A stretch of DNA of 64,000 bases, from contig JAGAXW010000003.1 of assembly GCA_017847725.1 (NCBI GenBank), forward strand, positions 62,001 through 126,000. Reading direction: 5' to 3'. The position numbers were made by a program, and so were the translations under genes. Origin of the DNA: Prevotella sp. (lineage in GTDB: Bacteria; Bacteroidota; Bacteroidia; Bacteroidales; Bacteroidaceae). The notes beneath the pieces are model-generated. The model was not told the DNA's origin. It ran no database searches and saw only the letters and a list, made by a program, of their open reading frames with translations. Positions 41,194 through 47,373 of the stretch are shown one piece after another (positions within the stretch are counted from its first letter, which is position 1; each line of letters begins with the position of its first letter).

Positions 41194-41745
41194 TTAATCA
41201 TTTTTATGGAAAAACTCAGATATTTTTTTTACTGCAATATGGTAGGATGCCTTTAGCGAGCCTTCCGAAGTGTGCATAATGGCGCTAATCTCACTATATT
41301 TCATGTTGTCGAAATAACGAAGGTTAAAGACTGTCTTCTGCACATCGGGCAGTTGGGAAATAGCCTGTTGCAGAAGTGCATCCGCCTCGTCTCCGTCAAA
41401 ATATTGATCAGCTTGCAGCCTGTTCGCCACTTGCATGATATCGTCGTCTGTGTGTATATTGCTTTGCTTCTTGTTACGACGCAGGACGTCCAGACTCTCA
41501 TTGATAGCGATACGATACAACCATGTGGAGATTTTGGACTCCTGATGAAATTTGTCCAAGTGGGTCCACGCCTTCATGAAGACATTTTGCATGACGTCGT
41601 TGGCATCCTCATGATACAGGACGATACGTCGTATTTGCCAGTAAAGTGGTTCACTGAATTCCTTTACCAGTTTTCCAAACGCAGCGCGCTGCGTTTTCGG
41701 ATTGGTCAGTTGCTGCATCAACAGCTCTTCATCTTTCTTTGTCAT
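41194..41745 (-). CDS. ECF-type RNA polymerase sigma factor
   Basis: A 183-residue sigma-70 family factor. Region 2 shows DANDVMQNVFMKAWTHLDKF, with the usual polymerase-binding and -10 recognition helices, and region 4 shows LPDVQKTVFNLRYFDNMKYSEI followed by SEGSLKASYHIAVKKI. The start is taken at 41745 (MTKKDEELLMQQL); its A is shared with the TAA of the upstream L,D-transpeptidase gene, so translation is coupled. Likely controls envelope functions. Confidence 0.9.
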   Translation of the reverse strand: MTKKDEELLMQQLTNPKTQRAAFGKLVKEFSEPLYWQIRRIVLYHEDANDVMQNVFMKAWTHLDKFHQESKISTWLYRIAINESLDVLRRNKKQSNIHTDDDIMQVANRLQADQYFDGDEADALLQQAISQLPDVQKTVFNLRYFDNMKYSEISAIMHTSEGSLKASYHIAVKKISEFFHKND

Positions 41746-43331
41746 TATATATAAGGCTGTAGACGTTCCCAAATTATTTGATCGTAGCCATAGACGTCAG
41801 GCCAGGTTCTCACACTTCCATTCTCGTCGGGCCAGATTGTGTAGTAAATCAAGAAAAGAGGCACATGTGGTTTCACTGGGACATAGCCTATTAGCCTATG
41901 TTCCTTGTCCTCACTGTGTCTTTCCAGATATGCCCGTCCTCTTTCTGTTTCTGGTTTGATATCCATCGAAATGCGTATCCGGTCCAGAAGCCACTCGTCG
42001 GGCTGGTCCAAAACGTATTGTGCCAACTCAAAGGGCTTGGCCACTCGTACACATCCGTGCGACACTGCTCTCATGTCACGCATGAAGGCACCGGGGTTTG
42101 AGGTATAGTGAAGAAACACGGAGTAATTGTTCTTAAAGCGGAACACGATGCGGCCTAACGAATTATCCGAACCACTCTGTTGCGCAACACGATAGTTTCC
42201 ACTCAAAAGCATACTCCGCGAGACACTGCTAACATCTATCACTTTATTGGTGGTTTTTTCGTATATCTGATAGCGGTTTCGTGCAAAATACGCGGTATCA
42301 CCGACATGCTTGACGACGTCTTTTTCTACGATACTCCTGGGAATAACCCACTGGGGATTAACCTCCATCCATTCGATGGCACTGGTCAGCAGCGGTGTCT
42401 TCGTCTTCTGAGCACCACAGACAATGCGCATGTCGAGTAATGTGTCCGCGTCGAATGCATACAGATGATAGGCAGGTATATTGACTACAATATACTTGCC
42501 CGACTCGGGTATGGGCTGGCGGAGTCTCCAGCGTCCGCGTTCCATGTTACAAAGGATGCACCGGCGCTGCTCATTGTCTGGCTGTTCATACAACATCTCC
42601 TTCATCTGCCGGTAGTATTTGCCGTCGGGCTGTATCTCGCTTAAGAAGGCTGCGATGCTGTCGTTCTTTATCTTGCTCAGCACACTACGATAGAACGAGG
42701 ACGAGGGTACGTCCATGGGAATGTCGAACAGCTCACGATAGATTGTCCTGTGGTGTACCGTATCTTCTTTCTCTACATCAAGATTGTTGAACACTCTTCT
42801 CGGATTTATATATCCGAACCGCTGTCCCGTGGCATATCTAAGGCAGGCGCGTGTCAACTGGAACTCCAGCCTTGCTGCCACCCTGTTGATTTCCTGCGAA
42901 TCGTCAAAGTCCAGTTGGCGCAATTTCCTAATGTCATTTTCTATTCCGACGATGCCAAACGCATTCGGACTCATGCCAATTTCGGGCAGCAAACGGAGCC
43001 ATGACACCAGCGAGTCTGCCCTGTCGTCTATGCCATAATAGTCTATCCACAACAGTTTGTCATGCTCCAGATAATAGCTTCGCGTCACTCTGTCGACATC
43101 CACTTCTACAGGGGTCTCCCAGGCTATTTTCTGCAAATTACCTTTTATCTTGTGATAGTCGAAAACAAATGCAGGCGTCTTCAAATCTGAAAACGCCTCC
43201 GTCGTTGTTATTCTATTTTGATCGTTCTCTCTCTGGTTGCAACTTGTCAGCAACAAAAGCACCAAAGCAAGTAGTTCAGTTAGTGTATAGAAACTTTTCT
43301 GACTACCTTTCCTATTTTTAGAATGTAGCAA
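41745..43331 (-). CDS. L,D-transpeptidase, YcbB/LdtD-like lipoprotein
   Basis: A 528-residue cell-wall enzyme. The start is a TTG; it gives a basic n-region, a hydrophobic stretch and a lipobox-like LLTSC at about residue 31, so the protein is probably a lipoprotein, but the start is not certain. The catalytic YkuD domain at about residues 285-440 has the signature RAVSHGCVRVAKP with the catalytic Cys and His. The long N-terminal region resembles the scaffold domain of YcbB. It would make 3-3 crosslinks or attach proteins to peptidoglycan. Its first 52 bases overlap the preceding small gene, and its stop overlaps the sigma factor start. Confidence 0.88.
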   Translation of the reverse strand: MLHSKNRKGSQKSFYTLTELLALVLLLLTSCNQRENDQNRITTTEAFSDLKTPAFVFDYHKIKGNLQKIAWETPVEVDVDRVTRSYYLEHDKLLWIDYYGIDDRADSLVSWLRLLPEIGMSPNAFGIVGIENDIRKLRQLDFDDSQEINRVAARLEFQLTRACLRYATGQRFGYINPRRVFNNLDVEKEDTVHHRTIYRELFDIPMDVPSSSFYRSVLSKIKNDSIAAFLSEIQPDGKYYRQMKEMLYEQPDNEQRRCILCNMERGRWRLRQPIPESGKYIVVNIPAYHLYAFDADTLLDMRIVCGAQKTKTPLLTSAIEWMEVNPQWVIPRSIVEKDVVKHVGDTAYFARNRYQIYEKTTNKVIDVSSVSRSMLLSGNYRVAQQSGSDNSLGRIVFRFKNNYSVFLHYTSNPGAFMRDMRAVSHGCVRVAKPFELAQYVLDQPDEWLLDRIRISMDIKPETERGRAYLERHSEDKEHRLIGYVPVKPHVPLFLIYYTIWPDENGSVRTWPDVYGYDQIIWERLQPYI

Positions 43332-46218: not shown

Positions 46219-46240
46219 TATTCTTAAATTCTGTTTTGAG

Positions 46241-46314
46241 TGACTCCCGCGGGATTCAAACCCACAACCTTCTGATCCGTAGTCAGATGCTCTATTCAGT
46301 TGAGCTAGGGAGCC
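46241..46314 (-). tRNA. tRNA-Arg (ACG)
   Basis: A 74-base cloverleaf on the minus strand. The acceptor arm pairs GGCTCCC with GGGAGTC (one G-U), discriminator A. The anticodon stem TCTGA/TCAGA encloses the loop CTACGGA with anticodon ACG. The T arm has GGTTTGAATCCC. CCA is not encoded. Confidence 0.94.
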
Positions 46315-46333: not shown

Positions 46334-46366
46334 GCAAAGGTACGCACTTTTTATTTAACCACCAAA
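46334..46366 (-). promoter_or_regulatory. Promoter of tRNA-Arg
   Basis: Minus-strand TTTG at 46366-46363, 20-base gap, TACCTTTGC at 46342-46334. Confidence 0.7.
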
Positions 46367-46424: not shown

Positions 46425-46468
46425 TAAAAATTAAAGGGAGACTCCTGTCTCACGACACAAGTCTCCCC
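46425..46468 (-). terminator. Terminator behind the cobalamin riboswitch
   Basis: Minus-strand hairpin GGGAGACTTGTGTC-GTGA-GACAGGAGTCTCCC (plus positions 46436-46467) with a GUGA tetraloop, followed by TTTAATTTTT. It lies 73 bases after the B12 box and 59 bases before the tRNA-Arg promoter. Confidence 0.8.
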
Positions 46469-46540
46469 GAGACTTATATAATAATACACGTATTCCGTCT
46501 TACGATCTAACCCCAGAGATCTAAAAGACGAATGAATCAT

Positions 46541-46680
46541 CAGGCAGGTCTTCTGACTTACTCCCTCCCCCGGTTCGCCTTCCCAAAAATATCAGTGGCG
46601 TAATGAACCGAGAGTGCAAGGAGAGCTTACAGCTGCGGGACAGTCGGGGATTCACACCCCGTTCCCTTACCTAATGCGTG
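46541..46680 (-). ncRNA. Cobalamin (B12) riboswitch without a recognisable target gene
   Basis: Read on the minus strand, all hallmark parts of a cobalamin riboswitch are present in order: GGGAACGGGGTGTGAATCCC, CGACTGTCCCGCAGCTGTAAG, the GCCACTG motif, GGGAAGGCGAACC and the B12 box AGTCAGAAGACCTGCC at 46558-46543. It binds adenosyl- or other cobalamins and normally controls B12 transport or B12-independent enzymes located downstream. Here the sequence downstream is a terminator followed by tRNA-Arg. An ATG begins one base after the box and opens a 38-codon frame (46540-46424) that runs through the terminator, but its sequence does not look like a protein. Confidence 0.9.
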
Positions 46681-46734
46681 GCAAAGATACGAAATAATAC
46701 CGACATACGAAAGTTTTTTGGGAAGATTAACGCA
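46681..46734 (-). promoter_or_regulatory. Promoter of the riboswitch with an upstream TGCGTTAATCTTCC block
   Basis: Minus-strand TATCTTTGC at 46689-46681 is the -7 element. A TGCGTTAATCTTCC block lies exactly 31 bases upstream (46734-46721). The same block and spacing recur before a -7 element at 62486-62478. Confidence 0.55.
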
Positions 46735-47373
46735 GGCCGCCCCATCAATAGCAGATTTGCAGGCAATAGCCACAAAATTTATGTACGCGTACTTATTTAA
46801 TATGAATTCGACGAAAAAAAACAGTTTCACACACGGACATATACCGTTGATGTTTAACGAGATACGTGTGAAACTATATTTTCGGCTCGTCACGTCTGTA
46901 TCATCTCCCATTATAGTCTATTTCATATTTTGTAACGGTGGCATTGTATCGTGCGACGGCCGTCGCACATATCTACCACGGCCGTCGCACGATATAAAAT
47001 AAGGCTCTCCAGACGGTGATAAACCTGGCATAGATGATGATTCAGCCTAACTTGATAGATAGCACACCCGGACTGCATACCAGTGTTCTCCAAAACTTAG
47101 TTTCACACCTAAAACTCAGTCACACAGACGGATACAAGTTGTCGTGAATCTGTTTTTTTGAGTTAAAATTATAATCAATGAGCAATCAGAAGCTACGCAC
47201 GATAGGAGAACAATATAAGAAACAGAAGACTTCACCTTATTTATATATGATATTACCATATACCAATCAGGGCGTGGAAATCTAAGCAAGCCAAAAAAAA
47301 TGTTGCACTTTTGTGGCGTTACCCTGAAAGTAATCTTTTTACCTTAAAAAGGACTAATACCTATTTAAGATTG
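46735..47373. other. Gene-poor stretch with palindromes and short repeats
   Basis: No convincing gene. It contains a GTACGCGTAC palindrome near 46783, three AGTTTCACAC copies (46823, inverted at 46866, and 47099), the palindrome pair at 46949-46998 described separately, and one short frame at 47178-47285 (35 residues, MSNQKLRTIGEQYKKQ at the start) that could be a small gene but has no recognisable relatives or promoter. A 94-residue frame at 46718-47002 has no protein-like composition. Confidence 0.5.
46949..46998. repeat. GTGCGACGGCCGTCGCAC palindrome pair
   Basis: ATCGTGCGACGGCCGTCGCA holds an 18-base perfect palindrome, and 12 bases later CGGCCGTCGCACGAT repeats one arm with its flank, so the whole block also folds as one long hairpin with ATCGTGCGACGG paired to CCGTCGCACGAT. 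It is very GC-rich in an AT-rich setting. Confidence 0.75.

Follow-up and report, generated by a model that had tools for sequence, protein, structure and literature searches.

On the minus strand of the analyzed Prevotella sp. DNA, a stretch of 64,000 nucleotides (the window), a cobalamin riboswitch is followed by an AU-rich stretch, a terminator hairpin and a U-rich tail, and the next gene downstream is a tRNA-Arg gene, which is probably not controlled by the element (Table 1). The aptamer was assigned with Rfam cmscan to RF00174 (Cobalamin; E-value 4e-21), and the match covered positions 1-189 of the 189 model positions, so that the aptamer is complete. The covariance-model check proposed in the earlier note thus came out well above the gathering cutoff (90.6 vs 31.5 bits). 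The Rfam scan of the window at gathering level gave no further family overlapping the element, and plasmid BLAST with the element returned aptamer-like and tRNA-like pieces only. A covariance match to the small RNA FopS (RF04319) was absent from the element and present elsewhere in the window, at 48290-48217 (-), right behind the genes for the ribosomal proteins L21/L27 (70.8 bits, cutoff 56). Upstream of the element, 800 bp are noncoding and include, at window positions 46950-47000, an inverted repeat that looks perfect (CGTGCGACGGCCGTCGCAC with its repeat).

Table 1. Features of the riboswitch element and of the adjacent tRNA gene (positions in the window).
Feature	Position	Strand	Basis
-7-like promoter box TATCTTTG of the putative small RNA	46682..46689	-	by-eye reading
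Cobalamin riboswitch aptamer (RF00174)	46526..46689	-	cmscan
Hairpin 3' of the aptamer, loop CUCUGGGGUUAG	46496..46530	-	predicted fold
Conserved putative seed GUGUAUUAUUAUAUAAGU, 18 nt, within the AU-rich stretch between aptamer and terminator	46472..46489	-	
Terminator hairpin, 10+4 pairs	46435..46468	-	predicted fold
U-rich tail UUUAAUUUUU, RNA 3' end	46425..46434	-	sequence
Promoter-like boxes TTTG / TACCTTTG belonging to tRNA-Arg	46335..46366	-	sequence
tRNA-Arg(ACG), next gene downstream	46240..46314	-	ARAGORN, Rfam

The -7 promoter consensus of Bacteroidota is TAnnTTTG, and from the box resembling it the RNA would start at about position 46677 and thus have a length of about 250 nt. A sigma-70 promoter scan gave no promoter at the element, the scan being uninformative for this phylum. 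The hairpin behind the aptamer, which we take to be P13-like, has a loop whose columns did not vary in any of the 19 rows of a relatives' alignment; the rows had been chosen by the exact 18-nt motif, so that the invariance of the motif itself in this alignment is by construction. For the 281-nt RNA, the folding energy was better than that of shuffled sequences (z -3.04; 1 of 200 shuffles equally good). In the whole-RNA fold the mean unpaired probability of the seed was only 0.44, and its 3' end has an alternative partner in the terminator's 5' arm (nascent fold -11.2 kcal/mol). On the element's strand no open reading frame (ORF) of at least 50 aa was found from the aptamer and terminator to tRNA-Arg. 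The element thereby combines a promoter of its own (as a box read by eye), a Rho-independent terminator and the lack of an ORF, as in a small RNA gene, and the earlier description as an orphan cobalamin riboswitch with its own terminator and without a gene before tRNA-Arg was borne out by the aptamer score, the hairpin and the missing ORF.

Searches of the host genome covered an assembly of 2,388,429 bases (2.39 Mb) in 56 contigs, an uncultured-type draft of ~81% completeness, and further targets may therefore be unseen. Three cobalamin riboswitches were found, the window copy with 90.6 bits and the others with 80 and 79.2 bits. Both of the latter directly precede genes for TonB-dependent receptors (Pfam), with no terminator-like hairpin seen in between, and lack the AU-rich seed motif, which occurs once in this genome.

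Using the element DNA as query, 56 of 398 genomes of the genus gave a match at E <=1e-12, including 21 near-full-length homologs in 20 genomes besides the window. The 18-nt motif was exact in 19 of these 21, while the other two carried one extra T. The pattern GTGTATTATN{0,3}ATAAGT was present at 65 places in 57 of 150 genus genomes, and a reversed control pattern at four places. Across the order (198 genomes, up to two mismatches) the motif was absent or at chance level, with its own and six other places vs 15 control places. A scan of contigs from named genomes yielded at least 119 stretches, mostly of Prevotella type and including some clear chance matches in other phyla; named carriers among the matches listed are Prevotella communis E15-14, a MAG labelled Xylanibacter ruminicola SIG140, P. 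koreensis KCOM 3155 and X. brevis ATCC 19188. By these comparisons, GUGUAUUAUUAUAUAAGU is conserved within the Prevotella-type genus and can be read as a small-RNA seed.

Counting the window copy, 80 distinct loci with aptamer and motif were found, 28 with a short and 52 with a long linker, and the motif followed the aptamer in sense orientation 80 times and never in antisense. The next ORF of the short-linker loci, located behind the terminator, resembles the TonB receptors of the window's own genome in 23 of 28 cases (one of them matching another ORF of such an operon); the five without it are the window and loci L354, L361, L368 and L402. By sequence class, the window copy belongs to the short-linker type. 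For the 52 long-linker loci, the next ORF is TonB-like by the same resemblance in three, an ORF of 132-133 aa in seven and on the opposite strand in 11; three further pieces have no ORF, and the others precede varied genes at varied distance. Altogether, the next ORF lies on the opposite strand in 14 of the 80 loci, and the first ORF of at least 100 aa past the motif does so in P. communis, the X. ruminicola MAG, P. sp. OH937 and P. koreensis, the last having tRNA-Thr and tRNA-Gly genes first after the motif. In view of these loci, the stand-alone copy in the window is no oddity among its relatives.

Several further arrangements were observed. The 132-133 aa ORF lies directly 3' of riboswitch, seed and terminator in L137 (2493-2894), L147, L172, L343, L344, L352 and L380; the one scanned (L137) had no Pfam match, and it is possibly a new B12-related protein. 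Stand-alone long-linker copies in L097, L098, L099, L101 and L103 lie beside a membrane protein/peptidase gene pair, and in L097, L101 and L103 the other flank is a divergent sigma-factor-like gene similar to that at window 41194-41772. In seven loci (L150, L165, L157, L146, L300, L303, L316), a sense seed with a terminator-like hairpin and no detected aptamer is located downstream of B12-receptor or cobalamin operon genes; these copies look like 3'-UTR-derived small RNAs with identical seed. The first codons of cbiK (cobalt chelatase) in L167, L168, L169, L145 and L155 (Pfam for L169) consist of sense seed and hairpin. There the motif is coding, and as a leader peptide it would read VYYYIS (Val-Tyr-Tyr-Tyr-Ile-Ser), but the same letters stand in another frame in L153 and L176, which indicates a constraint at the nucleotide level, and a leader peptide was excluded.

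At seven of the 65 places matching the exact pattern, the match was antisense and just 5' of a start codon, which suggested a small-RNA seed. The respective genes are mutA (L123), oadG-like genes (L124, L154, L175; labelled by N-terminal similarity to the gene of the window's genome), those for the alpha subunit of lysine 5,6-aminomutase (L130 and, by Pfam, L160) and that for the alpha subunit of a ferredoxin oxidoreductase (L125, by Pfam). In the 2.39-Mb assembly itself, the 11-mer ACTTATATAAT, the complement of the seed core, was found at three places: at the seed locus on the other strand, in the mutA start region (C7:12117-12127) and in the oadG start region (C7:10229-10239); a reversed control was found at two. 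The 19-mer with up to three mismatches matched the seed and the oadG site, and its control nothing. The mutA gene belongs to the adenosylcobalamin-dependent methylmalonyl-CoA mutase. On this contig, which is not that of the window, Pfam identified mutA, mutB with a B12-binding domain and, in the divergent operon 1.9 kb off, OAD_gamma (oadG), a biotin carrier and OAD_beta, preceded by an Asp-Al_Ex permease gene. Predicted seed duplexes reach -18.1 kcal/mol for mutA (with one bulge) and -18.6 for oadG, and cofolding gave -24.6 vs -10.8 apart for mutA and -27.3 vs -12.7 for oadG. The mutA duplex ends a few bases upstream of the ATG; the 5' ends of mutA matches lie at -38 to -19 relative to it. 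For metH (PF02965 loci, L256-L285), no clear site was found, the best (L276, -13.4) being at an ORF that is not metH-like. The lysine 5,6-aminomutase gene kamD is a candidate target in few genomes, as PF09043 was found in 1 of 120, with a second copy in genome G165 (L160).

Over the genus, pairing of the seed with 60 mutA start regions from 59 genomes had a median of -14.7, with 46/60 at -12 or better and 38/60 at -14 or better. Other start regions reached these values in 4/510 and 1/510 cases (Mann-Whitney p 4e-31, overstated by kinship), the background being 691 start regions minus the loci fetched by the motif (L107-L183, L255, L288-L320) and mutA-like starts. The reversed seed reached -12 with none of the 60 mutA start regions. 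In the 46 genomes with both seed and mutA, the mean for own pairs was -16.3 and for swapped pairs -14.7, and none of 10000 permutations was as low; this test pooled seeds of all contexts (riboswitch, 3' UTR, cbiK start), and neither it nor the previous one is independent, since the genomes are related. Own pairs were at -14 or better in 42/46 genomes, and shuffled start regions had a mean of -6.6. Variant seeds fit variant targets in G129 (seed GTGTAATATTATATAAGT, target ACTTATATAATATTACA) and G076 (seed GTGTATTGTTATATAAGT, target ACTTATATAACAACA); the G129 type of target is, however, also seen alongside the ordinary seed (G074, G134, G141). A seed is present and a good mutA match absent in G136 and G090, and of 13 genomes in which no seed was found, 6 nevertheless carry a mutA site that reaches -14. 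By co-occurrence, mutA is present in 40/42 genomes with an exact seed vs 40/78 others, with the seed genomes picked manually on the basis of exact sense matches, excluding antisense and chance matches. A mutA site (-13.5 to -18.2) is present in each of the eight genomes reached via named or MAG loci; three of these genomes (G597, G600, G602) are identical with G085, G064 and G007, and five are new. The conserved seed is thus complementary to unlinked mRNA starts, above chance and co-varying with them.

A published data set on X. ruminicola KHP1 (PMC11575231) bears on these candidate targets. In that study, B12 raised mutA and mutB at both RNA and protein level (log2 1.3-1.7), and mmdB, mmdC and oadG of the mutAB locus were up in RNA by less than 0.8 log2, while the mmdA-mmdC genes of a separate locus were unchanged or slightly down. 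In total, 502 genes changed, and only three proteins were higher with B12. The authors regard the mechanism as unknown and the effects as minor, favor post-translational control, and consider cobalamin riboswitches, of which KHP1 has four, not directly involved, as none lies near the responding genes. The two responding transcription units (mutAB; oadG-mmdBC) are those with target sites in the genome of the window.

We propose, with a probability of about 0.83, that the element encodes a trans-acting small RNA that is controlled by a B12 riboswitch, is made at low B12 and represses the B12-dependent propionate pathway. This reading is based on what the analysis shows directly, namely the aptamer, the terminator, seed conservation, complementarity to start regions, genus-wide co-variation and orientation. 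The 5' riboswitch would set the output of an RNA extending from about 46677 to 46425 (-). At low B12, the full RNA would be made and stop at its own terminator, and the seed GUGUAUUAUUAUAUAAGU would pair just 5' of the start codons of mutA and of oadG, the first gene of the adjacent decarboxylase-subunit operon. Such pairing would block translation and lower the mRNAs, which would spare the cell a B12-dependent pathway that could not operate. With B12 abundant, the riboswitch would turn the RNA off, possibly through termination (early or Rho-dependent), masking of the seed or RNA decay, and the pathway would be expressed. We infer transcription, repression with its direction, and the way in which bound B12 lowers the active RNA. 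Cobalamin riboswitches usually shut genes off upon B12 binding, as is also stated in PMC11575231; the RNA is therefore expected at low B12, repressing then, which agrees with the published direction in KHP1. For the short-linker class, the alternative pairing of the seed 3' end with the 5' arm of the terminator could mean that termination frees the seed and anti-termination masks it. Copies preceding receptor genes may thus yield either the receptor mRNA or the small RNA, and the direction may be the opposite one: the terminator ahead of a TonB-like gene could act as an attenuator there, with the short RNA perhaps more common at high B12. The switching direction in these copies is the weakest point of the model.

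The earlier note had offered three options, namely a stand-alone regulated small RNA, a remnant, or a transcript reading through into tRNA-Arg and mazG without B12; the first is favored by the conserved seed, the intact terminator, the two targets at start regions within the same genome and further stand-alone copies in the genus, the other two lost ground, and the distant targets were absent from it. That tRNA-Arg and mazG are indeed the next genes on the strand speaks for a read-through leader, which we consider barely credible given the strong terminator and the separate promoter-like boxes of the tRNA gene; also, tRNA-Arg matches in 20 scanned relatives had no cobalamin riboswitch nearby. 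A riboswitch stranded after loss or relocation of a btuB-type gene and now functionless would fit the TonB-receptor-like gene that comes next in most short-linker relatives, the window copy being of the same class. This is very improbable as well: the aptamer is the top scorer of the three in its genome, the seed is exact or nearly so in the near-full-length homologs, none of aptamer, hairpin, seed and terminator is damaged, the seed still matches both targets within its genome, and stand-alone copies persist, as seen from the loci with the next ORF on the opposite strand.

Two other explanations take the motif itself as functional. The shared word could be the DNA site of a B12-responsive transcription factor acting on B12-uptake loci and on mutA/oadG, as would suit the identical word at both kinds of loci and the AT-rich character of many sites. 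An operator of this kind, which we regard as unlikely, would not be expected to have the fixed orientation seen after aptamers; moreover, mutA starts match as complement only (reversed and sense-orientation controls 0/60), the mutA site falls between a promoter-like box and the ATG, single-base bulges and, in G102, G-U pairs are tolerated, and pairs from one genome outdo swapped pairs. Orientation, site placement and the tolerance of bulges and G-U pairs thus favor RNA pairing over a protein operator. With as little probability as the stranded riboswitch, the terminated RNA could be a decoy of the Rli55/EutX kind that sequesters an RNA-binding protein acting on cobalamin mRNAs with sense motif and hairpin: such sense copies do occur inside cobalamin operons (before cbiC/cobJ-like genes and at cbiK starts), but the antisense matches at mutA and oadG would be left unexplained.

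Beyond the single locus, we consider it rather probable, though clearly less so than the small RNA itself, that the genus has a B12-economy circuit in which one seed, carried by stand-alone riboswitch RNAs, leaders of B12-receptor operons and terminator-bearing stretches of cobalamin operons, represses B12-dependent and linked enzymes at low B12, with methylmalonyl-CoA mutase, decarboxylase subunits and, in some genomes, lysine 5,6-aminomutase as targets. If true, the circuit would be a cofactor-sparing response with sensor and effector in one RNA, and the leader copies would choose by terminator and anti-terminator between receptor mRNA and a freed seed. The B12-dependent propionate production by Prevotella/Xylanibacter matters in the gut and for the nutrition of ruminants. 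The B12 induction published for KHP1 in 2024 (PMC11575231) would be explained by a small RNA that is under riboswitch control and acts on remote genes, and this model predicts which transcripts respond. For annotators, it would mean that a riboswitch without a neighboring gene can by itself form a complete regulator, and that targets may be found by searching the seed of a riboswitch RNA at the start codons of the enzymes using the cofactor.

No prior description of this RNA was found in the open-licence PMC literature (bioRxiv not included), and related principles are known from other bacteria. In RyhB-type metal-sparing systems, a small RNA is induced when a cofactor is scarce and represses the proteins that require this cofactor, as proposed here; RyhB is controlled by a repressor protein, whereas here the sensor is within the same RNA. 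The likeness and the difference of the element to Rli55 of Listeria hold likewise for EutX of Enterococcus, its counterpart. Rli55, as described in PMC8079631, also has a cobalamin riboswitch on a stand-alone RNA and allows B12-dependent enzymes only when B12 is present, but acts by sequestering the antiterminator EutV via ANTAR elements, whereas here the evidence is pairing with mRNA starts. From the same source, AspocR of Listeria resembles our proposal in that a B12 riboswitch shuts off an RNA repressing a B12-using pathway, the full RNA being made at low B12; it is a long RNA running antisense to pocR within one locus, in contrast to a short seed and unlinked genes here (PMC8079631). Unlike AspocR, the element has no gene opposite and its targets on another contig; the sole ORF above 90 aa opposite its upstream part (46718-47002 +, 94 aa) clears aptamer and seed. 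SreA/SreB of Listeria are riboswitch RNAs that pair in trans with a 5' UTR and also lie upstream of a transporter operon, but their ligand is SAM, the acting form is the terminated RNA at high ligand, and the target is a virulence regulator instead of enzymes that use the ligand (PMC8079631). As described there, none of Rli55, AspocR and SreA unites a B12 riboswitch with a pairing seed directed at the enzymes of its own cofactor, as we propose for the RNA described here.
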